Shown here one piece after another: positions 3,761-52,002 of a stretch of 64,000 nucleotides of DNA; within the stretch, counting starts at the first letter, position 1, and every line of letters begins with the position of its first letter. The stretch covers positions 62,001-126,000 of the forward strand of contig NZ_BSDE01000002.1 of the NCBI RefSeq assembly GCF_030268085.1, written 5' to 3'. This stretch comes from Geothrix limicola (GTDB lineage Bacteria; Acidobacteriota; Holophagae; Holophagales; Holophagaceae). The position numbers were made by a program, and so were the translations under genes. Below the pieces are notes generated by a model that did no database searches, was not told the origin of the DNA, and worked only from the letters and a program-made list of their open reading frames with translations.

Positions 3761-3768
3761 GAACGACC

Positions 3769-4195: not shown

Positions 4196-4204
4196 AGTCC
4201 AGCC

Positions 4205-17133: not shown

Positions 17134-17769
17134 ATGGACACCGCCCCCACCCAGGCCAGCCCCGAAGGCGCCTTCGAGCTCTCGGGGGGGGATCTCTGCC
17201 TGGATTTCGCGAACACCTGGGGGGACCGAAGCCGCCCGGAGACGGATCTCCTGGAGAGCTACCCGCAGCTCCTCGCCTTCGCCCGCCAGACCGCCTCGCT
17301 GAGCCCGGAGGCCATCCGCGCCCTGGAGGCCCGCGCCAAGCCCCCAGGCGCGAACGTGGCGATGCGCACCGCCCGCGCCTTCCGCGAGGCCCTCTACGGC
17401 ATCTTCTCCGCCCGGGCCCAGGGCCTGGAGGTTCCAACCCAGGACCTCGCCTGCCTGAACCGCCTGCTGCGGGAGGCCCTCCCCAACCTCTGCCTGGTCT
17501 GCGAGGGCGCCGGATCCGCCTGGCAATGGCGGGAGGAGGCGCGCCATCTCACCTCGCCCCTCTGGCCCATCGCCCGGGCCGCGGCGGAGCTGCTGACCCG
17601 GGACCCCTCCGTCCCGGTGCGGGAATGCGGAGGCTCGCAGTGCACCTGGCTCTTCCTCGATTTCAGCCGCGGCCGCTCGCGCCGTTGGTGTTCCATGAGC
17701 AGCTGCGGCAACCGCGAAAAGGCACGCCGCCACTATCACCGCACAAAAGGCAGGGAGTCCGGGCTATGA
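17134..17769 (+). CDS. CGNR zinc-finger transcriptional regulator
   Basis: The product has 211 residues. The N-terminal stress-response (ABATE-like) domain starts with ELSGGDLCLDFANTWGDR. The C-terminal zinc-binding domain carries RECGGSQCTWLFLDFSRGRSRRWCSM and the family-naming CGNREKARRHYHR. The cysteines and basic residues are intact. It is divergent from the dinB-like/SpoIIE operon across 85 bases with overlapping promoters and a palindrome, so it probably represses that operon and itself. The inducer is unknown. Confidence 0.9.
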   Translation: MDTAPTQASPEGAFELSGGDLCLDFANTWGDRSRPETDLLESYPQLLAFARQTASLSPEAIRALEARAKPPGANVAMRTARAFREALYGIFSARAQGLEVPTQDLACLNRLLREALPNLCLVCEGAGSAWQWREEARHLTSPLWPIARAAAELLTRDPSVPVRECGGSQCTWLFLDFSRGRSRRWCSMSSCGNREKARRHYHRTKGRESGL

Positions 17770-17810
17770 AGGCTCAGGCGAAGGCCCAGGCGCGTCCTGG
17801 CTCCGGGTAG

Positions 17811-23947
<6,137 letters not shown>

Positions 23948-24140
23948 CGGCTGATTCTCCAAATGGACCCACCGGGTCCAGGCTGGTTCGTTGATATGCA
24001 GGTCTTCAGTGTACCCAGGGGTCCGGGTGTGCCAATCCTGGATTCACCCTTGGCGTATCGGAGGTGGGCGAACCGTCTGACCATCCCTCCCATGAGGCAG
24101 GGCCTGCCCGGGATCAGACCGGTTCTGGCACCCTGGGGGC

Positions 24141-25334
24141 ATGGCCACCCTGCCCCTCCTCACCGCGCCCCAGGCCCAGAGATTGTTCCTCGGAGCCCAG
24201 GGTCTGCTCGACGATCCCGCGCGCAAGGCCACGCCGGCCTCGCTGCAGAAGCTCGTCGAGCGTCTGGGCTTCGTGCAGGTGGATACCATCAATGTCCTCG
24301 CGCGGGCCCATGACCTCACGCTGTTCAGCCGCCTGGACGGCTACCGGCCCGAGCACCTGAAGAAGCTGCTGGAGGGCAAGCGCAGCCTCTTCGAGGCCTT
24401 CACCCATGACGCATCGGCCATCCCCACGGCCTTCTTCCAGCACTGGAAGCCGCGCTTCGAGCGCGACCGCGCGCGCATGCACGCCCACGCCTGGTGGCAG
24501 CACCACTTCCGCGGCACCGAGGGCGCCCGGGTGGTGGCGGACGTGAAGGCCCGCATCGAGCGGGAGGGCCCACTCAAGTCCTCGGATTTCGAGCACCCCG
24601 AAAAGCGCGGTCCCTGGTGGGGCTGGAAGCCGCAGAAGGCCGCGCTGGATTTCCTGTGGCGCAGCGGCGAGCTGATGGTGCCCCGCCGCGAGGGCTTCCA
24701 GAAGGTCTACGACCTCACGGAGCGGGTGCTGCCCGAGCATCACGGCCTGCCCTGCCCCGATCCCTCGGAGCACCTGGAGTGGGCCTGCGCCAGCGCCGCC
24801 GAGCGGCTCTGGGTCTTTACACCCAAGGAGCTGGCGGATTTCTGGGCCAGCATCGAGGCCCCCGAAGCCAAGGCCTGGTGCGCCGCCGCGGCCAAGGCCG
24901 GACGCATCGTGCCCGTGGAGGTGGAGGACGTCGACGGCACCCGGCGGCCGGCCTTCGCCCTCAGCGACTGGCAGACGCGGCTCGCCAAGCTGCCCGAGGC
25001 GCCCGAGCGCACGCGGCTGCTCTGCCCCTTCGATCCCATCCTGCGCGACCGCACGCGGGCCCTGCGCCGCTTCGGCTTCGACTACCGGTTCGAGGCCTTC
25101 GTGCCCGAGCCCAAGCGGCAGTATGGCTACTTCGTCCTGCCCATCCTCGAAGGCGACCGCCTCGTGGGCCGCCTCGATCCCAAGCTGCACCGCGACCGCG
25201 GCCTGCTGGAGATCAAGGGCCTCTGGTGGGAGCCGGGCATCCGCCCCACCAAGGCCCGCCAGCGCGCCCTGGACGAGGCTCTGCAGGAGCTGGCGACCTT
25301 CGTCGGGGCCGACGACATCCAGCGGCCCGCCTGA
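24141..25334 (+). CDS. ycaQ: YcaQ/AlkX-type winged-helix DNA glycosylase
   Basis: The product has 397 residues, the usual length for the HTH_42 (AlkZ-like) family. The catalytic loop reads Q46-V-D48 (GFVQVDTINVLARAHDLTL), matching the Q-x-D type found in YcaQ/AlkX enzymes that open interstrand crosslinks, rather than the Q-x-Q of AlkZ. Further family blocks are FEAFTHDASAIP, KSSDFEHPEKRGPWWGWKP and RLLCPFDPILRDR. A DNA-repair role is inferred from the family. It stands alone upstream of the RpiR regulator, 19 bases away. Confidence 0.85.
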   Translation: MATLPLLTAPQAQRLFLGAQGLLDDPARKATPASLQKLVERLGFVQVDTINVLARAHDLTLFSRLDGYRPEHLKKLLEGKRSLFEAFTHDASAIPTAFFQHWKPRFERDRARMHAHAWWQHHFRGTEGARVVADVKARIEREGPLKSSDFEHPEKRGPWWGWKPQKAALDFLWRSGELMVPRREGFQKVYDLTERVLPEHHGLPCPDPSEHLEWACASAAERLWVFTPKELADFWASIEAPEAKAWCAAAAKAGRIVPVEVEDVDGTRRPAFALSDWQTRLAKLPEAPERTRLLCPFDPILRDRTRALRRFGFDYRFEAFVPEPKRQYGYFVLPILEGDRLVGRLDPKLHRDRGLLEIKGLWWEPGIRPTKARQRALDEALQELATFVGADDIQRPA

Positions 25335-25353
25335 CCGCGCTATCCTGGGCCTC

Positions 25354-26196
25354 ATGTCCGCGCCTAAGAACCCCCTTCTGGATCGCCTGCACAGTGCCCA
25401 GGGTCTTTCCACCAGCCAGCGCCAGATCGCCGATTGCCTCATCGCCAACATGAACGAGGCGCCGCTTTGGGGAGTCGAGGAGCTGGCGGAGAAATCCCAG
25501 ACCTGCGTGGCCACGGTGGTGCGCTTCGCCAAGAAGCTGGATTACTCGGGCTACCTGGAGATGCGCAAGGCTCTCGTCAGCGCCGCCAAGAAGCACTACG
25601 GCCGCGGCGAGCAGCTGCTGCAGGCCCCCGTGCGCGCTTCCGCCACCCTGCTGGAAGTGGCCCGGCGCGACATGAAGAACATCGAAACCCTGGTGCAAGC
25701 CGTGAACGAGGACCTGCTCCAGCGGGTGGTCAAGCAACTGAAGGGCAGCCGCCTCAGGCTGGCCATCGGCGATGGCGTCTCGGCCCTCATGGCGCGGCAG
25801 CTGGCCTACCTGCTCATCAACACGGGCCTGCCGGTCATGGAGGGCAACCCCGCCGACTTCGCCACCCAGGTGGGGATGCTGGACAGCAAGGACCTGCTCA
25901 TCGCCATCAGCATCAACCCCTACACCCAGGAAACCCTCGATGCCGCCGCCTACGCCCGCAAGCGGGGCGTGCCCGTGCTGGCCTTCACGGACAACCTGAA
26001 TTCGCCCCTGGCCAAGTCCGCCACCCTGGCCCTGCCCATCCCGGGCGAAAACCTGCTCTTCTCGCACAGCGTCACGGCCTTCGGGGTCCTCGCCCACGCC
26101 ATCGCCACCTCCATCGCCAGCCAGGCCCCCCAGCGGGCCCTGAACAAGCTGCGCGAGGTGGAGCGCGTCGCCCGCCACAAGTTCGCCAAGACCTAG
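25354..26196 (+). CDS. MurR/RpiR-family transcriptional regulator
   Basis: The product has 280 residues. The N-terminal HTH_6 domain (about 1-75) includes LSTSQRQIADCLIANM and VEELAEKSQTCVATVVRFAKKL. A SIS domain (about 120-255) has LAIGDGVSALMARQLAYLL and DLLIAISINPYTQETLDAA. RpiR proteins usually sense phosphosugars. It is the first gene facing into the TonB-receptor/cyanophycinase cluster, 149 bases before the receptor, and is a reasonable candidate for its local regulator. A small hairpin (26230-26247) lies just behind it. Confidence 0.88.
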   Translation: MSAPKNPLLDRLHSAQGLSTSQRQIADCLIANMNEAPLWGVEELAEKSQTCVATVVRFAKKLDYSGYLEMRKALVSAAKKHYGRGEQLLQAPVRASATLLEVARRDMKNIETLVQAVNEDLLQRVVKQLKGSRLRLAIGDGVSALMARQLAYLLINTGLPVMEGNPADFATQVGMLDSKDLLIAISINPYTQETLDAAAYARKRGVPVLAFTDNLNSPLAKSATLALPIPGENLLFSHSVTAFGVLAHAIATSIASQAPQRALNKLREVERVARHKFAKT

Positions 26197-26229
26197 GGCG
26201 CAAAACCAAGACGGGCGCGGGTTCCGGCT

Positions 26230-26247
26230 CGCCATCCAAAGATGGCG
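26230..26247 (+). terminator. Weak hairpin after rpiR-like gene
   Basis: CGCCATC (26230-26236), loop CAAA, GATGGCG (26241-26247). Seven base pairs, but no T-run follows. It may weakly end the RpiR transcript or simply separate it from the receptor promoter. Confidence 0.3.
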
Positions 26248-26280
26248 CAGGGACGTTTTATGAGCATGATGAAAAAAAAC

Positions 26281-26310
26281 TTGACTCACTTTTGATAAAA
26301 GCACTACTTT
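26281..26310 (+). promoter_or_regulatory. Candidate promoter of the TonB receptor operon
   Basis: TTGACT (26281-26286) and TACTTT (26305-26310) are separated by 18 bases, inside an A/T-rich island (about 26260-26335) that stands out from the GC-rich surroundings. The -35 is strong and the -10 is weak, which would fit an activated or sigma-dependent promoter. It lies 36 bases before the receptor ATG. Confidence 0.4.
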
Positions 26311-26345
26311 TTGGTCACTCATTTCAATCAACCTTCGGAGGCTCG

Positions 26346-29114
26346 ATGACTAGGATCTCTGGCAGTTCCAGGTTCAGTGCGCTCGTCCTGGCCCTCGTGG
26401 CCTGTCCCGCGGCCCTGGTCGCCCAGGGCACCACCACCTCGGCCCTCACGGGCGTGGTCCTCGACCAGACGGGAAAGCCCCTTCAGGGCGCCCTGGTCCG
26501 GGTGACTTCCGACTCGCTCATCGGCGGCGCCCGCTCAGCGGCCACCGCCGAGAACGGGCGCTACCGCATCCCGATGCTCCCCCCGGGCCGGTACGCCATC
26601 ACGGTGGAAGCCAAGGGATTCCCCACCCAGAAGGTGAACGAGGTCGCCGAGCTCGGCAAAACGACCACCGTCGACTTCCGCCTGGCTCCCGAGACGACGG
26701 CGGTCGTCGAGGTGGTGGCCCAGGCGGGCGCAGGCGAGATGGTGTCGACCATGACCCGGAACTTCCGGGCCGAGGACATCGAGTACCTCCCCATCAAGCG
26801 GGACATTGCGGGCATCGCGGCCCTGACCCCCGGCATCAACCTGACCCCCGGCAGCCAGGCGCGCGTCTCCGCCTCGGGCTTCGGCGGCGATCGCGACAAT
26901 GCCAATGCCTACCTGATCAACGGCATCAACGTGGGCGACTCCTCGGCCGGACAGGCCTGGGTGCAGGTGAATCCCGACTGGTTCGAAGAGGTCCAGATCG
27001 GCGGCATCGGCGCCGGGGCGGAGTTCGGCGGATTCTCCGGCGCCTACTTCAACGGCATCATCAAGAAGGGCGGCAACCAGTTCACGGGCTCCCTGGCGGG
27101 CTACTACCAGAAGGACAGCTGGAGCGCGGCCCTCAACGCCCCGGACCCCTCTGCGCCCGATCTCATCGTGCGCAAGGTGGGCGACACGGCTTCGGACCTG
27201 GCCCTGAACGTGGGCGGTCCCATCATCGCCGACAAGCTCTGGTACTTCTTCTCCGTCGAATCCATCTCCATCGAGCGCACGCCCGTGGGCAGCCCGGTCT
27301 CCGAAAAAAGGTCGACGCCCCGAGCCATGGGCAACCTCACCCTGCAGGCCACGCCCACGTCCACGCTATCCCTGTTCATGGACTACGACACCGTGGAGAC
27401 GGATCACCGCGGCGCCAGCCGGGTGCTCGCGGCCGAAGCCACCCGCAAACAGAACGGCCCGAACTTCACCTTCGGCCTCGAGTGGATGCAGACCCTCAAC
27501 AGCAACATGGTCCTCACCCTCCGGGCCAGCGGTTACAACGGCATCGATGATCACAAGGCCTACAACGGCGAGAACTACTCCCTCTACATCGACGGTACCG
27601 TGCCCGTGAATCCCGCCATCCCGGAATACGGGCCCCACGTGGGCTACGAGCAGATCAACAACGCCTACCAGGCCTTCGAGAACACCCGCAGCCGCCTGGG
27701 CCTGCAGGGCTCCCTGGACTGGTTCATCCCGTCCGGCGCAGGCTCCCACGCCCTCAAGTTCGGCTTCGATGTGGATCACGCGCGGGACCGGGAAAGGACC
27801 TGGTATCCCGGCGGCATCTCCCTGAACGCCCTGGCCGACGGCGACACCATCTATACGGACTTCGTCCAGGTGGGCGGGGGCTGGGATTTCGATACCAACC
27901 TGAACCGCAGCGCCCTCTTCGTGCAGGACACCTGGACCCTCAACGATCAGCTCACCCTGCGCCCGGGCATCCGGTTCGAGGAATTCAAGGGCGGGGATCA
28001 GTGGAAGACCTCCACCGTCGCACCCAGGTTCGGCTTCACCTGGAACCCCGATGCGGCCAAGACCATCGCCATCAAGGGCCATCTGGGCCGCTACTACGAC
28101 GGCCTTTCCGGAGCCAACTATGATCGTGCCATCCCCGGGGCCTACCCCCTCGAGAAGCGCTACTGGTGGCCCAATTACGACGACGCCCAGGCGGTGGTTC
28201 TCCACAACCTGACCAACCCCCTGGCGGAGTATCCTCTGCCGGTCATGAACGATTCCACCTTCCGCAACGCCGTCACCGAACGCAGCAGCCTCGACCCCAA
28301 CGTCAAGCAGCCCTACTTCGATGAAGTCCAACTCGCCGTGGAGAAGCGGTTCGGCAAGAACTGGGTCGTGTCGGCGAACTACGTGAACCGGAAGGGCAAG
28401 GACCTGCTGGCCCGCTTCGATCACACGCCCCTGCCGGGCACCACCACCTCCGTGACCAATCCCCTGACCGGCGAGGTCCTGACCTTCGCCCGGCCTGGCG
28501 TGAACGCGGATGGATCGCACGACTACTACATCACCAACGACCCGGACGCCAAGCGCAACTACACCGCCACGACCCTCTCCGTGGACGGACGCTTCACGGC
28601 GGACTGGGATGTGAACTTCAGCTACACCAAGGCCAGCAACAAGGGCAACCTCCTGAAGTCGAACGGCTACTCCTCCGGCCGGGAGTGGATCGGATCGATG
28701 TACAACAACTACGGCAACCTGCCCGGCACCAACGACGACGAATACAAGCTCCGCACCTCGTACAAGATGCCCTGGGGCACGCGGCTCTCCGCCAGCTTCG
28801 TCTACCTCAGCGGCCTGCACTACACCCGCAACATCCGCACCTCGCGGCTCACCAACCGCGAGTACTACTACGTCAACATCGAACCCCTCGGGGCCAGCAC
28901 CTACGACGCCCGCCGGCTGCTGGACCTCCGCGCCTCCCACCGGTTCGCCCTGGGCAAGAAGACCGCCGTCGAACTGTTCGTGGACGTGTTCAACGTCCTG
29001 AACAACACCGCCGTCGTCGAACGGGGCACGCGCTACGACAGCGCCTACTACAACGTGATCTTCGACCAGGATTCGCCCCGCACCTTCCGCCTCGGCGCCA
29101 AACTCCAGTTCTGA
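26346..29114 (+). CDS. TonB-dependent receptor, Oar-like, with carboxypeptidase-regulatory-like domain
   Basis: The product has 922 residues. Signal peptide MTRISGSSRF...CPAALVAQG, then a CarboxypepD_reg-like beta-sandwich (about 28-115, with GVVLDQTGKPLQGALVRVT and RYRIPMLPPGRYAITVEAKG). A plug domain follows (about 125-235: EDIEYLPIKRDIAGIAALTPG, YLINGINVGDSS). The beta-barrel runs to the C-terminal Phe (TFRLGAKLQF). This is the outer-membrane transporter class widespread in Acidobacteriota. GGAGG precedes the ATG by 5 bases. Its position in front of secreted peptidases suggests uptake of peptide or polymer fragments, but the ligand is not known. Confidence 0.93.
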   Translation: MTRISGSSRFSALVLALVACPAALVAQGTTTSALTGVVLDQTGKPLQGALVRVTSDSLIGGARSAATAENGRYRIPMLPPGRYAITVEAKGFPTQKVNEVAELGKTTTVDFRLAPETTAVVEVVAQAGAGEMVSTMTRNFRAEDIEYLPIKRDIAGIAALTPGINLTPGSQARVSASGFGGDRDNANAYLINGINVGDSSAGQAWVQVNPDWFEEVQIGGIGAGAEFGGFSGAYFNGIIKKGGNQFTGSLAGYYQKDSWSAALNAPDPSAPDLIVRKVGDTASDLALNVGGPIIADKLWYFFSVESISIERTPVGSPVSEKRSTPRAMGNLTLQATPTSTLSLFMDYDTVETDHRGASRVLAAEATRKQNGPNFTFGLEWMQTLNSNMVLTLRASGYNGIDDHKAYNGENYSLYIDGTVPVNPAIPEYGPHVGYEQINNAYQAFENTRSRLGLQGSLDWFIPSGAGSHALKFGFDVDHARDRERTWYPGGISLNALADGDTIYTDFVQVGGGWDFDTNLNRSALFVQDTWTLNDQLTLRPGIRFEEFKGGDQWKTSTVAPRFGFTWNPDAAKTIAIKGHLGRYYDGLSGANYDRAIPGAYPLEKRYWWPNYDDAQAVVLHNLTNPLAEYPLPVMNDSTFRNAVTERSSLDPNVKQPYFDEVQLAVEKRFGKNWVVSANYVNRKGKDLLARFDHTPLPGTTTSVTNPLTGEVLTFARPGVNADGSHDYYITNDPDAKRNYTATTLSVDGRFTADWDVNFSYTKASNKGNLLKSNGYSSGREWIGSMYNNYGNLPGTNDDEYKLRTSYKMPWGTRLSASFVYLSGLHYTRNIRTSRLTNREYYYVNIEPLGASTYDARRLLDLRASHRFALGKKTAVELFVDVFNVLNNTAVVERGTRYDSAYYNVIFDQDSPRTFRLGAKLQF

Positions 29115-29144
29115 CCTTGCAGCCCAACGGCGATTGAAACCAGC

Positions 29145-29170
29145 GGCGGGAGCGCCCAGGCGCCCCCGCC
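29145..29170 (+). promoter_or_regulatory. Intercistronic GC-rich hairpin
   Basis: GGCGGGAGCGCC (29145-29156) and GGCGCCCCCGCC (29159-29170) can pair at 11 of 12 positions. The innermost pairs would open to form a CCCAGG-type loop. No T-run follows, so it is more likely an mRNA-stability or attenuation element between the receptor and the cyanophycinase gene than a terminator. Confidence 0.45.
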
Positions 29171-29191
29171 GTCCTGTGGTGGGATGGATCC

Positions 29192-30022
29192 ATGAAACGT
29201 TTTCTTTGCTTCCTTGTCCTGGCGGCTCTGAGCCTGAACGCGGCGAACCCGGCCCCAAAAGGCACCCTGGTCATCGTCGGGGGCGGCGGGATGCCGCAGG
29301 AGATCCTGGATGCCTTCCTCCAGGCTTCCGGCGGCCGGGGCGGCGTCGTGGGCATCATCCCCACGTCGACCAGCGATCCCGACGGCGCCCTGAAGGAATG
29401 GAAGGCGGATCTCGACAAGGCCGGCCTCACTTGCGTTGCCCTGGACGTCCGCACCCGGGAGGACTCGTCCAGGAAGGATCTTTTGGATCAGGCCGCCCGC
29501 TGCACCGGGTTCTGGTTCTCGGGGGGGGACCAGAACCTGGTGGGTGACAAGATCGTCGGAACGCCGCTGCAGCGGGTCGTGCTCGCCCGCTATGCCGAGG
29601 GGGCCGCCATCGGCGGTACCAGCGCGGGGGCCGCCATCATGTCCAAGGTCATGCTCACGGGCGAAGACCGGAATGGGCAGGAAGCCCTTTCGGAATTCGG
29701 CCCCGGGGCCTACCGCACCCGCGAAGGCATGGGCTTCCTTCCGCAAGGCGTGGTGGTGGACCAGCACTTTCTCCGCCGGGGGCGGGAGAACCGGCTCTTC
29801 AGCGTCCTCATGGAGCACCCCGATCACCTCGGCCTGGGCATCGACGAGGCCACGGCCCTGGTTGTGAAGAATGGCCGGGCCACCGTGCTGGGGCAGCGTT
29901 CCGTGATGGTCTTCGATCCCGCGGGCATGACGTCGAACGGCGCGGCCTTCCAGAACCTCCGCATCCACCTGCTGAAGGCCGGGCAATCCATCGATCTGGC
30001 CAGCCGCAAGGTGAGCCAGTGA
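29192..30022 (+). CDS. Secreted cyanophycinase-family peptidase (S51)
   Basis: The product has 276 residues. A clear signal peptide (MKRFLCFLVLAALSLNAANP) puts it outside the cytoplasm, as in extracellular cyanophycinases (CphE type). Family marks: LVIVGGGGMP at the first strand, GGDQ (111-114), the nucleophile elbow GGTSAGAAIM with Ser144, and DQHFLRRGRENRLF with the conserved His. Cyanophycinase cuts multi-L-arginyl-poly-L-aspartate into beta-Asp-Arg dipeptides. S51 also includes peptidase E (alpha-aspartyl dipeptidase), but length, GGDQ and the DQHF block favour cyanophycinase. The stop overlaps the GTG start of the M14 gene, and IadA is encoded two genes down, strongly supporting the polymer assignment. 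Confidence 0.85.
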   Translation: MKRFLCFLVLAALSLNAANPAPKGTLVIVGGGGMPQEILDAFLQASGGRGGVVGIIPTSTSDPDGALKEWKADLDKAGLTCVALDVRTREDSSRKDLLDQAARCTGFWFSGGDQNLVGDKIVGTPLQRVVLARYAEGAAIGGTSAGAAIMSKVMLTGEDRNGQEALSEFGPGAYRTREGMGFLPQGVVVDQHFLRRGRENRLFSVLMEHPDHLGLGIDEATALVVKNGRATVLGQRSVMVFDPAGMTSNGAAFQNLRIHLLKAGQSIDLASRKVSQ

Positions 30023-31491
30023 AGCCTGGCCTCATGCTGCTCCTTGCCGCCTCCCTCGCCGCGGCCGCCGGGCAAGCGCCCTTTCCCGCGGATCATCGCG
30101 CCCTGCGCCGCACGGTGTCTTACGAGGAGATGTCCACCTTTCTCGAGTCTGTGGCGAAACCCGGATTCATCACCGTCACCGAGGAGGGCTGCAGCACCCA
30201 GGGCCGCAAACTCTACCTGGTGCATCTCAAGCGGGGCGGCGTGAAGGCCCGCTTCAAGGTCTTCTACTACGCCCAGCAGCACGGCGACGAGGTGGCGGGC
30301 AAGGATGCCCAGCTCACCCTCATCCGCGACATCGCCGAACATCCCAACCTGCTGCCGGAGGACGTGGACCTCTACCTCATGCCCATGGTCAACCCCGATG
30401 GCGCCGAGGTCCACCAGCGCGTCAACGGCGCGGGCGCGGATCTGAACCGCGACCACCTGCTGCTGGCCCAGCCCGAAACCCAGGCCCTGCACCGCGTGGC
30501 CCGGCGCATCCGCCCCCACCTGGCCGTGGACAGCCACGAATTCGGCCGCGATGGCGAGGACTACACCAGGCGCGGCTGGGAGGCCTGGCCCATCATCACC
30601 ATGGATGCCTGCAACCATCCGCTGATCGCCGATTACCTCAAGCGCGCGGCCCTGGATGCGGTGAAGGCCGCCGCGCCCCTGCAGCAGAAGGCGGGCCACG
30701 CCTACCAGCGCTACACCGTGGGCGGCCCGCCTCCGGACGCGGAGATCCGCCCCTCGACGTCCGAGGTGGACGATGGGCGCAACGGCATGGGCACCCTGGG
30801 CGCCCTCTCCTTCATCATCGAATCCGGCGTGCGCCACCATGCCGCCGATCCCCAGGCGGACCTGGGCGAACGGGTGGACGGCTACCGCATCCTCTACCGG
30901 TACCTCCTGGGCACGCCCGCCTGGCGCCAGCGCATCCGCGCACTCGTGGAACGGGCCCGCCGCGAGCCGCTGCCTCCCTTCATCGCCACCAACACCTTCT
31001 GGGCCAACCTGGGCGGCAAGGTGAGCGCCGTGAAGGTGCGCGAGGTGGCCTCGGGCCAGGTGCTGGAGATCCCCACGGCCAACGCCATGACCGATCTGGT
31101 GGTGAAGGCCAGCGTGCCCACACCCAGGGCCTACGCCATCGACGCGGCGGCGGCCGCCCGGTTCATCCCTGTGCTGAAGGCCCAGGGGCTGAGCTTCGAG
31201 ACCCTCGCCGCACCGCGCCGCGTCCAGATCGAACGCGTGAAGCTGATCCGCCTCGAAGAACCCTACGACGAGCTTTACCAACGGTACAAGGACCGCCAGA
31301 TCGTCGCGCGCCAGCCCCGCGCCGAGGCGGAACTGCCCGCCGGCACCCTCCTCGTGCCGCTGGACCAGGACCTGGCCCGCCGCGCCATCCAGGTGCTGGA
31401 ACCCTGCCTGCTCTACGGGCTCTACGGCTACCCTGGTTTCCGCGAGCTGGCCCAGCCCGGCGCCGACCTGCCCGTGTCCCGCCTCTTCTGA
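30019..31491 (+). CDS. Secreted M14-family zinc peptidase
   Basis: The product has 490 residues from the GTG at 30019 (GTGA overlap with the cyanophycinase stop; AAGGTGA about 5 bases upstream). Signal peptide MKPGLMLLLAASLAAAAGQAP. Metal ligands and catalytic residues are visible: QQHGDE (His88, Glu91), DSHEF (His173), DLNRDH (141-146) and IIESG with Glu268. A roughly 180-residue C-terminal region has no recognised motif. M14 enzymes remove C-terminal residues from peptides; related zinc enzymes act on amino-acid amides and isopeptides. In this operon it may trim polymer ends or peptide by-products. Substrate inferred only. Confidence 0.82.
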   Translation: MKPGLMLLLAASLAAAAGQAPFPADHRALRRTVSYEEMSTFLESVAKPGFITVTEEGCSTQGRKLYLVHLKRGGVKARFKVFYYAQQHGDEVAGKDAQLTLIRDIAEHPNLLPEDVDLYLMPMVNPDGAEVHQRVNGAGADLNRDHLLLAQPETQALHRVARRIRPHLAVDSHEFGRDGEDYTRRGWEAWPIITMDACNHPLIADYLKRAALDAVKAAAPLQQKAGHAYQRYTVGGPPPDAEIRPSTSEVDDGRNGMGTLGALSFIIESGVRHHAADPQADLGERVDGYRILYRYLLGTPAWRQRIRALVERARREPLPPFIATNTFWANLGGKVSAVKVREVASGQVLEIPTANAMTDLVVKASVPTPRAYAIDAAAAARFIPVLKAQGLSFETLAAPRRVQIERVKLIRLEEPYDELYQRYKDRQIVARQPRAEAELPAGTLLVPLDQDLARRAIQVLEPCLLYGLYGYPGFRELAQPGADLPVSRLF

Positions 31492-31526
31492 TCCGTTCCG
31501 GGCCGCCGGGCCCGGCTGGAGTGCCC

Positions 31527-32693
31527 ATGCTGTTCCTCTTCAAGCACGCCGATGTCTACAGCCCCGAATCCGGGGGCCGCTGCGACCTGCTCGTGGGCGG
31601 CGGCAAGATCCTCCGCATGGAGCCGGACATCCGCATCTCCCGCAAGTACTGCGACGTGATCGATGCCCGCAACCTGCGCGCCGTGCCCGGCTTCATCGAT
31701 GGCCACGTCCACATCATGGGCGGCGGCGGCGAGGGCGGCTTCGCCACCCGCACGCCGGACCTGCCCCTCACGGATGCCATCCAGGGCGGCGTCACCACTG
31801 TGGTGGGTTGCCTGGGCACGGATGGCTACACCCGCAACATGGCGGGCCTGCTGGCCAAGGCCAAGGGGCTCGACGAGGAGGGCCTCAGCACCTTCGTCTA
31901 TTCGGGCTCCTACGGCCTGCCCCTGCGCACCCTCATGCCCAGCCTCGAGGAGGATCTGCTCTTCATCGACAAGGTCATCGGCGCGGGCGAGGTGGCCCTT
32001 TCGGATCACCGCTCGAGCCAGCCCAGCTTCGAGGCCTTCGCCCAGGTGGTGGCCATGGCGCGGCGGGGCGGCATGCTGTCGGGCAAGGCGGGCATCGTGA
32101 ACGTGCACCTGGGCGATGGGCCCCGCGGGCTCGACTTCCTGCGCCGCGTCCTGGCCGAAACCGAACTATCCGCCCATCAGATGCTCCCCACCCACATCAA
32201 CCGCAATCCGCGCCTCTTCGAAGAGGGCATCGCCTACGCCAAGGGCGGAGGCTTCGTGGACTTCACCACCTCGACCCTGGCCTCGTACCTGGATGATGGC
32301 GAGATCCCCTGCGCCAAGGCCCTGCGCCGCATGCTGGAGGCGGGCGTGGATCCCGGCCAGATCACCTTCACCTCGGACGGCCAGGGCAGCCTGCCGGACT
32401 GGGACCAGAACGGCCGCCTGCAGGACATCTCCGTGGGCCGCGTCCAGTCCCTCTACCAGGCCGTGCGCCAGGCCGTGCAGGAGGAGGGCGTGCCCTTCGA
32501 CACGGCCCTCCGGGTCATTACTTCGAATCCCGCCCGCATCCTCAAACTGAAAACCAAGGGGCGCCTGGCGCCGGGCATGGATGCCGACATCGTGCTGCTG
32601 GATCCCAGCGATCTGACGGTGCGCACCGTGATGGCCAAGGGGCGGCTGCTGATGAAATCGGGCAAGCTGCTGGCGAAGGGATTGTTCCAGTGA
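31527..32693 (+). CDS. iadA: Isoaspartyl dipeptidase (M38)
   Basis: The product has 388 residues; E. coli IadA has 390. It matches throughout: LFKHADVYSPESGGRCDLLV, metal site GFIDGHVHIMGGGGEGG with His60 and His62, TRTPDLPL, GGVTTVVGCLGTDGYTRN, SDHRSSQPSFE, LPTHINRNPRLFEEG, and TSDGQGSLP for the late Asp ligand. IadA hydrolyses beta-aspartyl dipeptides, including beta-Asp-Arg from cyanophycin, to aspartate plus the other amino acid. No signal peptide, so it acts in the cytoplasm. The start ATG has GGAG 5 bases upstream. The stop overlaps the transporter start (GTGA). Confidence 0.93.
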   Translation: MLFLFKHADVYSPESGGRCDLLVGGGKILRMEPDIRISRKYCDVIDARNLRAVPGFIDGHVHIMGGGGEGGFATRTPDLPLTDAIQGGVTTVVGCLGTDGYTRNMAGLLAKAKGLDEEGLSTFVYSGSYGLPLRTLMPSLEEDLLFIDKVIGAGEVALSDHRSSQPSFEAFAQVVAMARRGGMLSGKAGIVNVHLGDGPRGLDFLRRVLAETELSAHQMLPTHINRNPRLFEEGIAYAKGGGFVDFTTSTLASYLDDGEIPCAKALRRMLEAGVDPGQITFTSDGQGSLPDWDQNGRLQDISVGRVQSLYQAVRQAVQEEGVPFDTALRVITSNPARILKLKTKGRLAPGMDADIVLLDPSDLTVRTVMAKGRLLMKSGKLLAKGLFQ

Positions 32694-34159
32694 ATGCCCG
32701 CGAACGCGCCTACCGCAAACCGACTGCCCCTGCTCCTGCACCAGCGCCTGCCGCTCCGGCGGGTCTGAAGATGCCCCACACCCTGGTCATCGTGGCGGCC
32801 CTGATCGTCCTGGTGCTGCTGCTCTCCTGGCTGGTGCCCTCCGGTGAATTCCAGCGCATGGAGAAGCTGCTGCCCGACGGCGGCCGCCTGAAGGTGCCCG
32901 TGGACGGCACCTACCAGCAGCTGCCCAAGACCTACCTGGGCCTGCACACCCTCTTCCTCGCGCCCATCAAGGGCTTCCTCGACGGGGCAGGACTGATCTC
33001 CTTCCTGCTCATCATCGGCGGCAGCTTCGGCATCTTCCAGGAGACCGGCGCCGTGGAGCAGGGCATCAAGCGGCTCACGGTGCATGTGCGCCGCCACCCC
33101 TGGCTGGAGACGCTGTTCATCCCCGTGCTCATGACCGTGTTCTCGCTGGCCGGGGCCGTCTTCGGCATGGCCGAAGAGCTCATCCCCCTCGTCCTGATCT
33201 TCATCGCCCTGGCCCGCGCCCTGGGCTACGACTCCATCGTGGGCACGGCCATCCCCTTCCTGGGCGCCGCCGCCGGCTTCGCTTGCGCCTTCTTCAATCC
33301 CTTCACCGTGGGCGTGGCCCAGGGCATCGCGGGCGTGCCCATCTACTCGGGCCTGGCCTACCGCGTGGGCGCCTGGGTGGTGGCCACCGGCGTCGTCATC
33401 ACCTACGTGATGGTCTACGCCGCCAGGATCAAGAAGCATCCGGAGCTGAGCCCCGTGCGCGACCTCGACCTGGCCCGGGAGAGCCACGCCTCGGGCCCGG
33501 GAGATGCCTGGAACACCACGCACATCCTGGCCCTCCTCACCTTCCTGGGGGCGCTCATCCTGCTGGTCTACGGTGTGCTGAAGCACCACTGGTACCTGGA
33601 GCCCATCGCGGCGCTGTTCCTGGGCATGGGCATCCTCATCGGCCTCATCAGCCGCATGGGCCCGAGCGACATCGCCCGCCACTTCGTCACCGGCGCCAAG
33701 GACATGGTGGGCGTGGTCTTCATCGTGGCCTGCGCCCGCGCCCTGCTCGTCATCGCCAACGATGCGCGGATCATGGACACCCTGCTGCTCTACGGCTCCT
33801 CGGCCATCAAGGTGCTGCCCAAGGCCATGACCGCCCAGGTGATGTTCCTGCTGCAATGCGGCATCAACTTCTTCATCCACTCGGGCACCTCCCAGGCCGC
33901 CCTCACCATGCCCGTGCTGGCGCCGCTCTCCGACTTGGTGGGCATCACGCGCCAGACCTGCGTCTACAGCTTCGCGCTGTCGGAGCTGATCAACCCCATC
34001 CTGCCCACCAGCGCCGTGACCATGGGCGTGCTGGGCGCCGCGAAGATCCCCTGGGAACGCTGGGCCCGCTGGTTCCTGCCTCTCATGCTCATCCTCGTGG
34101 CCCTGGCCTTCCTGCTGCTGGTGCCCCCCACCCTGCTGTTCCACTGGGGCCCTGTGTGA
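32690..34159 (+). CDS. yfcC: YfcC-family membrane transporter
   Basis: The product has 489 residues with about 12 membrane segments after a Pro/Ala-rich cytoplasmic start. It matches the YfcC/ArcD-related family: KMPHTLVIVAALIVLVLLLSW, LVPSGEFQR, LIIGGSFGIFQETGAVEQGI, GMAEELIPLVLIFI, and the paired hairpin-like segments NFFIHSGTSQAALTMP and SELINPILPTSAVTM. Family members are proposed transporters of basic amino acids, dipeptides or dicarboxylates. In this operon it could import beta-aspartyl dipeptides, or exchange the arginine and aspartate released from them. It overlaps iadA and the M28 gene by GTGA at both ends. Confidence 0.85.
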   Translation: MNARERAYRKPTAPAPAPAPAAPAGLKMPHTLVIVAALIVLVLLLSWLVPSGEFQRMEKLLPDGGRLKVPVDGTYQQLPKTYLGLHTLFLAPIKGFLDGAGLISFLLIIGGSFGIFQETGAVEQGIKRLTVHVRRHPWLETLFIPVLMTVFSLAGAVFGMAEELIPLVLIFIALARALGYDSIVGTAIPFLGAAAGFACAFFNPFTVGVAQGIAGVPIYSGLAYRVGAWVVATGVVITYVMVYAARIKKHPELSPVRDLDLARESHASGPGDAWNTTHILALLTFLGALILLVYGVLKHHWYLEPIAALFLGMGILIGLISRMGPSDIARHFVTGAKDMVGVVFIVACARALLVIANDARIMDTLLLYGSSAIKVLPKAMTAQVMFLLQCGINFFIHSGTSQAALTMPVLAPLSDLVGITRQTCVYSFALSELINPILPTSAVTMGVLGAAKIPWERWARWFLPLMLILVALAFLLLVPPTLLFHWGPV

Positions 34160-35718
34160 GGCCCATTCTGTGGCCTGGCGCCGCCCTCCTCCTGGGCTGC
34201 CTCGTCACCTTCGCGGCCGCCCAGGAGCCCGGCGCCGACTTCCTCCGGGTGCGGCGGGCGGAAGCCCTTCCCGCACCGCTGAGCGCGGCCCTGGAGGGGC
34301 TGGATACGGCCCGGATCATCCAGCACCTGGCCTTTCTCACGGATCCCCGGAGGCAGGGTCGCGGCCTCGGCACCGAAGGCCTGGATGCCACGGCCCGGTA
34401 CCTGGCCGGGCAACTGAAAACCATCGGCATTCCGGCCCTGGGGCCTTCGTATATCCAGCCCGTGCCCCTGCGGGAGGTGCGGCCTGGCCGCGGCCAGATC
34501 CGCCTGAGCGCGGGCTCGGTCACCTGCATTTTCGAGGCGGGGCGGAATGCGGTGCTGCCCCAGGTGGAACCCGGCCACCTCTCGGGTTCGGCCGTGTTCG
34601 CGGGCTACGGCATCCAGGAGCCCGCCCTCCACCATGACGATTTCCGCGGCCTCGACGTCCGGGGGAAGGTCGTCGTCTTCCTGGACGGCCTGCCCGACGG
34701 AACTCGCTGGCAGACGCCCGAACTCCGCGAGCGCTACGCCTCGGCCCGCCCCGCGGACCGCTACGACACCCGCCTGGCCCTGCTGGAGAAGCTGGGTGCC
34801 AAGGCCGCCATCGCTCTGGAAGAAGGGCTCGGCGCGCGCATCGCCGCGGGCAAGGAATCCGCTCTGCCCTACTTCCTGGCCGCCCGCGGCGTGCCCCGCG
34901 CCGGCGAGCCGCCCCTCGCCCGCGTGGCCCTGACGGAAGACCTTCGTACGCTCGTTTTCAGCGGAAGGGTCGGAGAGGCCGACCTTCACATCCGCGGCCA
35001 CGTGCGGGAGCTCCTGAGCGACAACGTGATCGGTGTGCTCAAGGGCTCGGATCCCCAGCTGAACCGCGAGGCCATCCTCATCGGCGCCCACATGGATCAC
35101 CTGGGCATGCCCAACGGCATCCTGCATCCGGGCGCAGACGACAACGCCTCGGGGGTTTCCGCCCTGCTGGAGATCGCGCGGGTCCTGGCCGAAAGCCCCG
35201 TCCGTCCCCGGCGGACGCTCCTCTTCGCCTTCTGGACCGGCGAGGAGGAAGGCAAGTTCGGATCGGGCCACTACACCCGTCACCCCCGTTGGCCCCTGGC
35301 CGCGACCAGGGCCTACCTGAACCTGGACATGATCGGCCACCCCTGGACCCAGGCAGACCTCGGCGCCCTGCTGGCCGCGTCAGGAGTGAAGGACCCGAAG
35401 GCCTTTCTGGAGGGCCTCGATCCGGCCGCCTTCGCGGAGCCCGGCCTGCCTCCGGGCCATCGGGAGTTGGCGCCCCTCCTCCTTCAAGCGGGCCGCGGCA
35501 CCGGCATGTCCCTGCACCTGGACTGGACCGATGGCCGCCACGGCGGCAGCGACTACCGGGATTTCGCGCGACTCGGCCTGCCCTTCCTGCGCTTCTTCGG
35601 CAGCTACTTCCCCGAATACCACCGGCCCGGCGACACCCTCGACAAGCTCGACCCCGACCAGGTGAAACGCATGACCAGGCTGGTGCTGGCCACAGCCTGG
35701 CTGCTGGCGGATCGCTAA
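34156..35718 (+). CDS. Secreted M28-family aminopeptidase
   Basis: The product has 520 residues from the GTG at 34156, which overlaps the stop of the transporter gene. Signal peptide RPILWPGAALLLGCLVTFAAAQ. A protease-associated-like insert (YGIQEPALHHDDFRGLDVRGKV) precedes the M28 metal site: GAHMDHLG, HPGADDNASGVSALLE, FWTGEEEGKFGS, NLDMIGH and a late histidine in FPEYHRPGDTLDKL. These supply all five usual zinc ligands. It removes N-terminal residues from peptides in the periplasm. It is the last gene of the operon; whether it acts on aspartyl peptides is inference. Confidence 0.9.
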   Translation: MRPILWPGAALLLGCLVTFAAAQEPGADFLRVRRAEALPAPLSAALEGLDTARIIQHLAFLTDPRRQGRGLGTEGLDATARYLAGQLKTIGIPALGPSYIQPVPLREVRPGRGQIRLSAGSVTCIFEAGRNAVLPQVEPGHLSGSAVFAGYGIQEPALHHDDFRGLDVRGKVVVFLDGLPDGTRWQTPELRERYASARPADRYDTRLALLEKLGAKAAIALEEGLGARIAAGKESALPYFLAARGVPRAGEPPLARVALTEDLRTLVFSGRVGEADLHIRGHVRELLSDNVIGVLKGSDPQLNREAILIGAHMDHLGMPNGILHPGADDNASGVSALLEIARVLAESPVRPRRTLLFAFWTGEEEGKFGSGHYTRHPRWPLAATRAYLNLDMIGHPWTQADLGALLAASGVKDPKAFLEGLDPAAFAEPGLPPGHRELAPLLLQAGRGTGMSLHLDWTDGRHGGSDYRDFARLGLPFLRFFGSYFPEYHRPGDTLDKLDPDQVKRMTRLVLATAWLLADR

Positions 35719-35740
35719 GGCAGGGAAAGCCTTTTGAAAC

Positions 35741-35760
35741 CACGGATGAACACGGATGAA
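35741..35760 (+). repeat. Tandem CACGGATGAA element
   Basis: CACGGATGAA occurs twice in tandem (35741-35750 and 35751-35760), preceded by TTGAAAC. The string of the form accacggatgaacacggatgaa is a dispersed intergenic element seen in several bacterial phyla, but I cannot verify copy number in this genome. It lies between the convergent M28 and CapA-like genes. Confidence 0.45.
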
Positions 35761-35830
35761 CTCAGATGCGGTTCCTATCTGTGTCCATCCCACCGCCAAC
35801 GCATGCGTCGGCGGGGATCTTACGTCGCGT

Positions 35831-37210
35831 TCATCTGGGGCTCCCCTCTTCCTTTCCAAGACTGTTTCCCGATCGTTCGAGGTCGACCTCCGCGTACCAT
35901 CCCTTGTTCAGGATCCTGGTGCCGTAGGGCGCCGACAGCTTCTGCATCAGCGCGATGATCTCGCCGGACCTCCGGGTGCTGGCCAATCGCGGCACGCCGT
36001 AGAGGGGACCCTCGTCGTCGATGGTGACGGGCAGCAGCTGGATGCGCTTGAGCTTGCCCTGGTTCAGGATCATGCGGACCATCACCGTCTCCATCACCTC
36101 GCGGGAATCACGGCGGTCCCACACGGAGCCGTTGGGCACCTTCGGCATCTCGATATCGCGCTGGTGCAGGATGTCCGCGGGGATCCGGTCCGGGGTGCGG
36201 TACTGGTAGATGAAGTCGCCCAGGCTGTAGAAGATGGGGCGCCCCTTGTGGATCTCGATGCCCCGCAGCACGTGCGGTCCGGTGCCGATCACCAGGTCCG
36301 CCCCGGCCTCGATGGCGCGGCGGAACATAATCTCCTCGTTGGGCGGCGTGGTGTCCTGGATGCCGTGGGCGCGATGGTGGGTGACATCGTGGTTGTGCAG
36401 GGACACCAGCAGCAGGTCCGTCTTCCGCCGGGCCAGGAGGATGTCCTCCTCCATGGCGGCCACGTCCGATTCCAGCGGGCCCTCCACCTTCTCCACCTTG
36501 CCGTCGCGCATCGCCAGGATCACGGCGGGGTCGATGGTGGCCAGGGAAGGCGCGCTCGGATCCTTGCTGCGGTACTTCGCGGTCCAGTAGCGCATGTAGG
36601 AGAGCAGCGACACGGTGGTCCTGTGCCCCGCCAGCTCCGTGCGGCCCGGCGCGTGGGCCTCGGCCAGGGTGGCGCCCGCGCCCGCGTGCGTGATGTTGGC
36701 CTGGTCGAGGGCCTGGAGGCATTCCTTGAGACCTTCGGGCCCGAAATCCATGGCGTGGTTGTTGGCCTGGCTTACGAGGTTGATGCCCGTGCGGGCCAGC
36801 TCCCAGCGGAAGTCCCTGGGTGCCCGGAAATTGTAGAAGGGCCGCTGAAGGTCCGGCCGGTCGTTCAGGGAGAACTCCATGTTCGCGTAGGCGACATCGG
36901 CTTCCTGCATGAGCCGGAAGAGGCCCGCCCGCTCCGGTTCCGCCAGTTGGGTGATGGGCTGGTTGAAGATCAGGTCGCCCACGGCGGTGACGACGAGGTC
37001 GCCCGGCTCCTCCTTCAGCAGTTCCCCGATGCGGCCCGGCCAGTCGATGCGCTCGGGGGGCTCCGGCGGATGGATGCGCCGCTGGTAGACGGATCGCGGA
37101 TCGTCCTTCATGGCCCCGGCGGGCGCCTGCGCGCCGCAGGGGGAGGCCGCCAGGGCGAGCAGCGCCACCGCCAGGCGCAGGTTTCGATGGTTGCGGGCCG
37201 TCCCGTCCAT
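35831..37210 (-). CDS. CapA/PgsA-like metallophosphoesterase-fold protein
   Basis: The product has 459 residues from the ATG at 37210 (GGGGAG about 5 bases upstream). An N-terminal hydrophobic signal (NLRLAVALLALAASPCGAQ) precedes a calcineurin-like fold: VVTAVGDLIFNQPI, DVAYANMEFSLND, NLVSQANNHAMDFG, SLHNHDVTHHRAHG, ADLVIGTGPHVLRGIEI, IFYSLGDFIYQY. CapA/PgsA proteins are needed for poly-gamma-glutamate export or anchoring in some bacteria, but many homologues stand alone with unknown roles. It is convergent with the cyanophycinase operon, so it is not part of that transcript. Confidence 0.85.
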   Translation of the reverse strand: MDGTARNHRNLRLAVALLALAASPCGAQAPAGAMKDDPRSVYQRRIHPPEPPERIDWPGRIGELLKEEPGDLVVTAVGDLIFNQPITQLAEPERAGLFRLMQEADVAYANMEFSLNDRPDLQRPFYNFRAPRDFRWELARTGINLVSQANNHAMDFGPEGLKECLQALDQANITHAGAGATLAEAHAPGRTELAGHRTTVSLLSYMRYWTAKYRSKDPSAPSLATIDPAVILAMRDGKVEKVEGPLESDVAAMEEDILLARRKTDLLLVSLHNHDVTHHRAHGIQDTTPPNEEIMFRRAIEAGADLVIGTGPHVLRGIEIHKGRPIFYSLGDFIYQYRTPDRIPADILHQRDIEMPKVPNGSVWDRRDSREVMETVMVRMILNQGKLKRIQLLPVTIDDEGPLYGVPRLASTRRSGEIIALMQKLSAPYGTRILNKGWYAEVDLERSGNSLGKEEGSPR

Positions 37211-37264
37211 GGCGCTCCCCGGATGCTGAATCATGGTATGCCTATTTTTATTTCATTTTTAAAT

Positions 37265-37288
37265 CATGTGCAAAATATTTTGTGCATG
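37265..37288. promoter_or_regulatory. 24-bp palindrome in divergent promoter region
   Basis: CATGTGCAAAAT and ATTTTGTGCATG are imperfect inverted repeats (10 of 12 pairs) around a perfect CAAAATATTTTG core (37271-37282). It lies in the only A/T-rich stretch between the CapA-like gene and the methyltransferase gene, 36 bases before the latter. Probably an operator for one or both. Confidence 0.5.
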
Positions 37289-37323
37289 CTCATCTCTAGA
37301 AACAGCCGTTCTATCGTGGAGAC

Positions 37324-37914
37324 ATGACCAAGCACCCCGACTACTGGAACCGCATCTACGAAGACGAAGGCCGCCCGGGCTGGGACATGGCCGGCGCCAC
37401 GCCCCTGGTCCGCGAGCTGCTGGACCTGGCCCGGCCCCTGGGTCTGCAGGCGGGAGGTGACCTGGTGGTGCCCGGCTGCGGCTACGGCCACGATGCCGCC
37501 GAACTCGCGGCCGAAGGGTTCCGCGTCACGGGCCTGGACTTCGCACCGCTGGCCATCCAGGGCGCCACAGAGCGCTACGGTGCGAAGGTGGCGTGGCATC
37601 AGGACGACTGGTTCACCACGGCCCTCGGCCCCTGGGATGCCATCTTCGATCACACCTGCTTCGTGGCCATGGACCCCGTCCGCCGCCCGGATTACGTGAA
37701 GGCCTGCGCCGCGCACCTGCGCCCCGGCGGGCTGTGGATGGCCGCGCTCTTCCACGAGGTGAAAGGCCCCGCGGGGCCGCCCCACGCCATCTCCATGCCC
37801 GAGATGCGCGCCCTCGCCGAAGCACACTTCGACGTGCTCCACCTGGCCGAAGCCACGGCCAGCCATCCCCGCCGGGCCGGCCGGGAATTCCTGATGGTGG
37901 CGCGAAGGCGCTAG
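37324..37914 (+). CDS. TPMT-like class I SAM methyltransferase
   Basis: The product has 196 residues. Opening YWNRIYEDEGRPGWDMAGATP is typical of thiopurine-methyltransferase-like proteins. The SAM motif I is LVVPGCGYGHDAAELA, followed by VTGLDFAPLAI, QDDWFT, FDHTCFVAMDP and LRPGGLWMAALF. Members methylate thiol, selenium, tellurium or halide acceptors. The acceptor here is unknown. The ATG is preceded by GGAG. Confidence 0.88.
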   Translation: MTKHPDYWNRIYEDEGRPGWDMAGATPLVRELLDLARPLGLQAGGDLVVPGCGYGHDAAELAAEGFRVTGLDFAPLAIQGATERYGAKVAWHQDDWFTTALGPWDAIFDHTCFVAMDPVRRPDYVKACAAHLRPGGLWMAALFHEVKGPAGPPHAISMPEMRALAEAHFDVLHLAEATASHPRRAGREFLMVARRR

Positions 37915-49167: not shown

Positions 49168-49308
49168 CGCTTCTTTTAAGAAAAAACCAGCTCAACAAGA
49201 GCATCCGCCTCCTTGGGGAAGGGCTTGAGCTCGAGTTCGTTTCAAAAAATGAAGAAAATATTAGTGCATTAACATCAAATTTGAATCATCCTGGACCCGA
49301 GGTGTTCC

Positions 49309-51882
<2,574 letters not shown>

Positions 51883-51923
51883 CGCTCGGCGCGGCCTAAA
51901 GTTGCACAGGAAAAACCTTAGCC

Positions 51924-51952: not shown

Positions 51953-52002
51953 TTGCCCCGTTTGCCTCGCAGTCCGATAGGGTTCGGGTACCAGGAGTCT
52001 GC

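Follow-up and report, generated by a model that had tools for sequence, protein, structure and literature searches.

A putative beta-aspartyl polymer scavenging island with a TonB-dependent receptor that appears to be exchanged in place in Geothrix limicola and its relatives

Introduction

Cyanophycin is a nitrogen-rich polymer that certain microbes lay down in store, and its turnover is usually told from the side of the storing cell. In the parts of the papers that concern us here, cyanophycinase and dipeptidase genes have been reported to cluster in genomes without cphA1, with citation of a cyanophycin utilization locus (PMC10206079), and secreted cyanophycinases without a synthetase have been described in Acidobacteriota, for which scavenging was proposed (PMC8528874). 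Cyanophycinase is absent from one streamlined genus of the Holophagaceae, unlike other Holophagaceae (PMC11561045), and two S51 clusters have been discussed in Balneolaeota (PMC6243061). For outer-membrane receptors, the types of the TonB receptor fpvA are mosaic across Pseudomonas aeruginosa lineages, and pyocin pressure has been proposed as the cause (PMC2777410). Here, we analyze a 64,000-nucleotide stretch of Geothrix limicola DNA (contig NZ_BSDE01000002.1, positions 62,001 to 126,000; hereafter the window), which contains an island of about 12 kb (25335-37323) located between an AlkZ-like and a TPMT gene and encoding a TonB-dependent receptor, an S51 peptidase of the cyanophycinase family, and the isoaspartyl dipeptidase IadA. 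We describe its gene families, linkage and borders, its single upstream element, and the phylogenetic incongruence and breakpoints of its receptor gene. With a probability of roughly 57%, we propose that it is a self-contained unit with which the cell scavenges a beta-aspartyl polymer (cyanophycin or fragments of it being the likeliest candidate) by a pathway of receptor, S51 peptidase, carrier and IadA.

Gene content and conservation of the island

The island and its flanks comprise the following features (positions in the window):

25354..26196, plus strand: RpiR-family regulator (HTH_6 and SIS in the family scan)
26270..26317, plus strand: operator- or promoter-like element, TGAAAAAAAACTTGACT-N13-AGCnTTACTTTTTnnTCA, upstream of the receptor; probable RpiR site
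26346..29114, plus strand: TonB-dependent receptor (TBDR) with an N-terminal CarboxypepD_reg domain (CarboxypepD_reg, plug and TonB barrel)
29192..30022, plus strand: S51 cyanophycinase-family peptidase, predicted secreted (Peptidase_S51, TIGR02069)
30019..31491, plus strand: M14 metallocarboxypeptidase-like protein, predicted secreted (Pfam Peptidase_M14)
31521..32693, plus strand: isoaspartyl dipeptidase IadA, predicted cytoplasmic (amidohydrolase scan, TIGR01975)
32690..34159, plus strand: DcuC/YfcC-family inner-membrane carrier, proposed dipeptide importer (Pfam DcuC)
34156..35718, plus strand: M28 aminopeptidase-like protein, predicted secreted (Pfam Peptidase_M28)
35831..37234, minus strand: CapA/PGA_cap-family protein, predicted secreted, the convergent last gene of the island (family scan, structure matches)
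24141..25334, plus strand: AlkZ-like gene, left flank, outside the island (in 44 of 47 genus genomes)
37324..37914, plus strand: TPMT-type methyltransferase, right flank, abutting AlkZ at empty sites (flank comparison in relatives)

Gene models and family scans place on the plus strand all seven genes that a first-pass annotation had assigned to one strand, with 4-base overlaps at three junctions and a 29-base gap at one; the M28 gene starts with a GTG that overlaps the stop codon of the carrier gene. The eighth gene of the unit, encoding the CapA-family protein, had been overlooked. Signal peptides of the island proteins were judged by eye only. The naming of the S51 protein from its GGDQ motif and Ser144 was sound, since it scores 165 bits against the TIGR02069 cyanophycinase model (cut-off 126.6), and GGDQ (residues 111-114) and S144, the serine of a GTSAGA motif, align with PDB entry 3en0. 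IadA was also named correctly (TIGR01975, 498.9 bits against a cut-off of 331.25). The term YfcC-type stands at the family level (DcuC, 316 bits), but the protein scores 365.6 against a cut-off of 500 for the equivalog NF008611 and is therefore better named a DcuC-family carrier. The receptor exceeds the cut-offs of both Pfam Plug and TonB_dep_Rec_b-barrel, and its predicted model resembles a TonB-dependent transporter (TBDT).

Among 93 genomes of the class, an S51 protein over the cut-off occurs in 41, IadA in 42, and the cyanophycin synthetase gene cphA in five (eight candidates per genome scored for cphA). Window-type S51 genes are present in 34 of 77 family genomes (35 copies), and for 33 of these copies IadA is found on the same contig and strand at a distance of 153-1802 bp, the IadA of one of them (G048) being partial where the contig ends; the remaining two copies sit on contigs without an IadA match. 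IadA over the cut-off was found in 33 of the 34 genomes with a window-type S51 and in 7 of the 43 others (Fisher p 1e-13, uncorrected for kinship). In uncut loci of the genus (g1), the order is AlkZ-RpiR-receptor-S51-M14-IadA-carrier-M28-CapA, with departures in L051, which lacks M14 and retains receptor, S51, IadA and carrier, and in L048 and L049, which carry about 1.3 kb extra between IadA and the carrier. Of 30 fetched loci with a window-type S51, all contain IadA, 29 contain M14, 29 the receptor, and 26 the carrier; the locus lacking the receptor begins at S51, and every locus uncut by a contig end holds receptor, S51 and IadA. The conserved neighborhood expected in relatives was thus found, with its order kept in the genus and its content reduced in genera g3, g5 and g9: the g5 locus L054 lacks M28, and the four fetched g9 loci contain only receptor, S51, M14 and IadA.

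Several variants accompany this pattern. Two g7 loci (L065 and L066) are rearranged, with an S51 below the cut-off and RpiR divergent from the receptor and IadA; in L066, an OPT-family oligopeptide transporter follows IadA, suggesting that the carrier slot moves peptides. The carrier is 67-68% identical to that of the window in L046, L047, L061, L077 and L078, compared with 84-91% elsewhere in the genus, and 63% identical over a piece in L062, so the carrier in this group may also have been exchanged once. Outside the class, the proteins of the window served as queries (E<=1e-6) in a survey of 60 S51 loci, some of them short: a DcuC-type carrier adjoins S51 in seven (Elusimicrobia, Ignavibacteria, Aminicenantes, Bacteroidota), RpiR occurs with a receptor-like protein in three, and five have an M20-like open reading frame (ORF), recognized by eye, upstream of S51.

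Borders and turnover of the island

The neighborhood of AlkZ was examined in 15 of the 23 island-free genus genomes. In 13 of these, AlkZ is followed by TPMT within 0-59 bp (the TPMT matches being in two pieces in two of the 13), and the island-free locus L168 has just TPMT pieces, 1.3 kb from AlkZ. Locus L172 (G036, 3600-5184) holds a decayed island with a full-length RpiR match, in which the first receptor codons run into carrier codons 289-489 (the last two fifths), a deletion scar; a worn copy of the upstream element is visible there by eye, beyond the reach of a three-mismatch search. The empty sites and this scar indicate that the island comes and goes as a block, and it is gained and lost as a unit. 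Within the genus, a search at E<=1e-60 detected the CapA-family gene in 22 of the 24 genomes with an island and in 0 of the 23 without one; it lies on a contig other than that of S51 in six of the 22, adjacency being seen only in the remainder, and many of the matches run past a stop near the protein end, where the window copy is longer.

Upstream element and RpiR regulator

Sixteen aligned RpiR-receptor intergenic regions (15 from g1 and one from g5) have nothing in common beyond the ribosome-binding end and a single block, TGAAAAAAAACTTGACT-N13-AGCATTACTTTTTGGTCA, the two ends of which look like a partial inverted repeat. A search allowing three mismatches recovered 23 sites in 22 of the 77 family genomes (21 from g1 and one from g5), all of them at islands as judged by a receptor or AlkZ gene on the same contig, and reversed-pattern controls in the same 77 genomes gave 0 sites. 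Three island genomes of the genus were unmatched: the loci of G034 and G050 start inside the receptor, and that of G035 carries a single-base gap. The first-pass annotation had counted both receptor and regulator as parts of the locus; this applies within the genus, where there is one receptor per island and the element occurs only at islands, but not to RpiR in g3 and g9, whose islands lack it, and the element has no match at the g3, g7 or g9 islands.

RpiR is 81-95% identical to the window protein in g1 loci, and its SIS loop reads S-I-x-P-Y-[TS] in g1 and g5 copies. The usual phosphosugar loop of SIS domains is S-x-S-G-x-T, and the inducer of a protein with this atypical loop therefore need not be a phosphosugar. 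RpiR probably binds the upstream element and, from this one site ahead of the receptor gene, could serve in g1 as a switch dedicated to the island.

Predicted pathway and substrate

In the proposed pathway, the TonB-dependent receptor would bring polymer fragments or oligomers into the periplasm, where the S51 peptidase would release beta-Asp-Arg (or beta-Asp-Lys) dipeptides while the M14 carboxypeptidase and M28 aminopeptidase trim alongside it, possibly with help from the CapA-family protein. The DcuC-family carrier would then move the dipeptides across the inner membrane, and cytoplasmic IadA would split them into Asp and Arg; the receptor gene would be exchanged in place while the enzymes stay. 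Substrate, compartments and direction of transport are all proposals of this scheme. Since a beta-Asp-Arg dipeptide should be able to pass through porins, oligomers are the more sensible cargo for a TonB receptor. The first-pass annotation had envisaged degradation outside the cell followed by dipeptide import; inner-membrane dipeptide import and IadA cleavage are retained here, but the receptor more plausibly takes oligomers, with S51 cutting in the periplasm.

Scavenging rather than storage, as originally suggested, is well supported. The absence of cphA from the window extends to the whole genome (4.23 Mb, 97.1% complete), in which no match exceeds the TIGR02068 cut-off and one cyanophycinase is found; S51 looks secreted and is linked to IadA in nearly all family copies. 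Furthermore, the island-bearing relatives G035 and G053 keep cphA and cphB for storage at a distinct locus, on a different contig, and this coexistence suggests that the island S51 is an outward-facing enzyme. As for the polymer itself, the residues Q114, S144, D190, Q191, H192, R196, R198 and R201, which we take from work on the cyanophycinase structure 3en0 to be the catalytic Ser/His and pocket residues, are invariant in 17 island sequences and identical in three storage CphB proteins adjoining cphA in relatives (L070-L072). Cyanophycin is accordingly regarded here as the probable substrate of the island S51.

A number of observations weigh against this interpretation. The S51 residue set is complete in 94 of the 105 S51 proteins examined, and thus marks the family rather than singling out cyanophycin. 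In the S51 tree, from which 11 near-copies and one sequence of fewer than 200 residues were excluded, the window-type clade (support 100) stands apart from the storage CphB clade (99), with weakly supported forks between them, and to our knowledge no member of the window-type clade has been assayed; this clade holds one sequence from outside the family, from a metagenome-assembled genome (MAG) labelled Sericytochromatia. SIS domains usually bind phosphosugars, and sigma-70 consensus and terminator scans of the region returned nothing beyond chance and no promoter. In the survey outside the class, IadA lies near S51 in just one of 60 loci. Within the family, the two g3 loci have neither RpiR nor the CapA-family gene, and the four fetched g9 islands lack the carrier, RpiR and the CapA-family gene. 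The g3 island is flanked by genes of lysine rather than arginine catabolism. M14, which has no known role in cyanophycin breakdown, is more constant (29/30 loci) than the carrier (26/30), which slightly lowers the probability of the polymer pathway and raises that of peptide salvage. Finally, promiscuity has been reported for the IadA enzymes of cyanophycin clusters (PMC10206079).

The alternative that survives best, and which we consider possible at somewhat better than one chance in four, is that the island salvages isoaspartyl peptides from damaged or partly digested protein, cyanophycin not being the main substrate. The receptor would import peptides, M14 and M28 would trim their ends, S51 would take beta-aspartyl or acidic remnants, and IadA would finish the process. 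The near-constancy of M14, the promiscuity of IadA and the position of S51 outside the storage CphB clade all fit this alternative, as does the receptor fold search, whose TM-scores are only about 0.5 and whose top match, FusA, is a receptor for a protein, ferredoxin. However, S51 passes the cyanophycinase model and shares the residue set of storage CphB, M14 is missing in L051 and M28 in L054 and the g9 loci, and the parts found in every uncut locus are receptor, S51 and IadA. The M14 residues H88, E91, H173 and E268 and the pair N143-R144 are invariant in 18 sequences and are presumably those of a working carboxypeptidase; the 50 listed of 1585 structure matches are carboxypeptidases or their kin, together with adeno-associated virus (AAV)-receptor entries. 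We considered M14 as a cyanophycin dipeptide hydrolase of the AstE/AspA (aspartoacylase) type and rejected this, as the protein matches only Pfam Peptidase_M14 and models as a metallocarboxypeptidase.

It is unlikely that the substrate is another poly-amino acid, with the CapA/MslH-superfamily protein as its epimerase or hydrolase; examples would be a cyanophycin variant rich in lysine, or a polymer that contains D-residues and is joined by beta or gamma linkages. This idea draws on the restriction of the CapA-family gene to island genomes in the genus, on the nearest solved structures of its product (8gq9 and kin), and on a g3 locus (L052; 2003-3359, 12856-15446) in which the island sits between genes for lysine 5,6-aminomutase alpha/beta and 3-oxoacid CoA-transferase A/B. 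Against the MslH lasso-peptide epimerase model NF038314, however, the CapA-family protein scores 118.3 with a cut-off of 700 bits, placing the two in the same superfamily only; a role in end-group processing would be a guess. Moreover, no CapA-family match was found in the fetched g3 and g9 islands, where the gene is therefore dispensable, and IadA is beta-aspartyl specific. Lysine was rejected as a general product, because lysine 5,6-aminomutase does not track the island (9 of 34 family genomes with it, 7 of 43 without; p 0.40). Arginase-family genes, present in 74 of the 77 family genomes, are uninformative as markers of the island. An asparaginase-like gene of type I, below its model cut-off, lies directly upstream of RpiR in the g5 locus L054 (13888-14901), and another asparaginase-like ORF was noted by eye near the storage locus in L071.

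Exchange of the receptor gene

A search at E<=1e-100 finds the receptor in 24 of the 47 genus genomes, the same 24 that carry S51, once per island and nowhere else, with just 19 first-look candidates scored in several genomes, that of G. limicola included. G051 has two islands and hence two receptors, one per island. These islands (contigs C44 and C56; L048 and L049) each have AlkZ and CapA-family flanks, their receptors belong to one class, and the MAG possibly mixes two strains. Receptor identity to the window protein is 78-80% in five genus loci and 75% in one locus of another genus, whereas it is 35-43% in other loci, except for a 184-residue piece at 67% in L055 (g7). Single linkage at 60% gives nine receptor classes, three of which cross genera (two join g1 with g9 and one joins g1 with g5).

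Closely related islands may differ in the receptor far more than in anything else. Between L041 and L044, identities are 99% for RpiR, 49% for the receptor, 91% for S51, 89% for M14, 95% for IadA, 96% for the carrier and 86% for M28; between L049 and L050, the corresponding values are 99, 48, 85, 90, 94, 94 and 93%. In both pairs, DNA identity is about 95% up to a point roughly 100 bases inside the receptor gene, past the signal-peptide codons, where it drops to about 55%; it rises again within the S51 gene, no more than about 150 bases from its start. In two control pairs there is no comparable drop, no 100-base bin of the receptor gene lying below 93% in one and 82% in the other, and L041/L044 has one further low bin, of 42%, at the S51-M14 junction. 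In L051 and L063, S51 has also diverged (52 and 60%), indicating that exchanges can reach beyond the receptor.

Phylogenetic analysis of the 25 loci with sequences exceeding 80% of full length gave a concordant picture; the truncated or receptor-less L055, L056, L062, L063, L077 and L078 and the variants L065 and L066 were excluded. The receptor tree rejects the genus as a single clade (p 2e-36, with five long rows flagged), and the IadA tree recovers it with a modest support of 82. On a tree of IadA, M14 and RpiR from the same loci, the receptor classes require 13 changes, the minimum possible being 7; over 200 shuffles of the labels, the mean is 14.1, and 59 of them need no more than 13. The observed number is no lower than expected by chance, so the class of a receptor is almost unrelated to the island in which it sits.

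These patterns are best explained by recombination that swaps the receptor in place. Sorting of old tandem paralogues by differential loss would also let receptor classes cross genera but is improbable, given one receptor per island in all 24 matching genus genomes and the identity breakpoints in both swapped pairs, with flat controls. Escape from phages or bacteriocins may be the selective cause. Between classes, receptor surface loops are 36% identical and the plug 57%, with strands assigned by hand on a model with a mean predicted local distance difference test score (pLDDT) of 72; we rejected loop divergence as proof of escape selection, since it is expected of any TonB receptor family. 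More tentatively, with odds somewhat under one in three, the receptor may be a swappable surface module, the diverged classes of which recirculate through the flanks formed by the promoter and signal-peptide region on one side and S51 on the other, the enzymes and the switch remaining fixed and the CapA/MslH-superfamily protein being a new poly-amino-acid enzyme. Under such a module, the classes could be older than the genera or passed between them, with phages, bacteriocins or structurally different polymers as the selecting agents, a part of the proposal that we hold equally tentatively.

Other genes in the window

Upstream of AlkZ, the window encodes a 1365-residue DUF3857-transglutaminase-TPR protein (19865-23962, minus strand), which has no match at E<=1e-10 in the loci of 23 relatives; in most of those loci, the next known gene upstream of AlkZ is that of the 682-residue protein of 17736-19784. 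Two ORFs of 1303 (49261-53172, minus strand) and 869 residues (58751-61360, plus strand) have no Pfam match at 1e-8; the former, overlapping a response-regulator/HD gene, could be an artefact.

Significance and comparison with known systems

The scavenger's side of cyanophycin turnover gains a testable genetic unit in this discrete island, which brings its own receptor and, in g1, a putative switch of its own. If pressure from phages or bacteriocins drives the exchange, the entry point would evolve in the manner of an antigen, with a conserved metabolism behind it, similar to what has been proposed for pyoverdine receptors, and receptor class would then be no predictor of the substrate for this island. 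In the CapA-family gene there may be a further enzyme of poly-amino-acid breakdown. Relative to the open-access literature searched, the new elements are the larger island, its single element, the empty sites with the scar, and the receptor exchange.

The kind of locus is already known as the cyanophycin utilization locus: S51 and IadA lie within 5 kb of each other, cphA1 is absent, and a transporter is present (the DcuC-family carrier and the TonB receptor). The locus of Salinivirga (Ben Hania et al. 2017, as presented in PMC10206079) likewise clusters cyanophycinase, isoaspartyl dipeptidase and a transporter without cphA1. Compared with that account, the island described here additionally has RpiR with a single element, a DcuC-type carrier, M14, M28, the CapA-family gene and an exchangeable receptor, part of which may already be contained in the original description. 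Ca. Sulfomarinibacter shares the signal-peptide cyanophycinase without a synthetase, with IadA in one MAG, whereas the relevant part of PMC8528874 describes no gene cluster, receptor or regulator.

The first-pass annotation had called a cyanophycin locus with a dedicated outer-membrane receptor and an RpiR regulator unusual; for the TonB receptor, there are two precedents. In the alphaproteobacterium Citromicrobium sp. JLT1363, a TBDT gene adjoins the cyanophycinase gene and was proposed to serve cyanophycin, as here, although no receptor exchange is reported in the corresponding part of PMC3400609. The other precedent is the Salinivirgaceae contig L127 (11894-19614), on which large SusC- and SusD-like ORFs, recognized by eye, stand beside IadA and a second, diverged S51 that is split over two ORFs.

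The family's own cphA-cphB storage loci (G035, G053, G063, G064 and G066) resemble the island in the S51 residue set, as far as the three examined are concerned, and in having IadA beside S51 in three of these genomes, all from g6 (partial in G064). Their CphB differs from the island S51 in having no evident signal peptide, a score of about 240 bits, linkage to cphA, and a separate clade. For the receptor, the closest parallel is fpvA, the types of which are dispersed over lineages as here, possibly through the pyocins that enter by them (PMC2777410, in the part concerned). However, fpvA encodes a siderophore receptor with a changing ligand within one species, whereas the present case concerns a nutrient receptor, predicted to serve a catabolic island, whose classes are distributed across genera.

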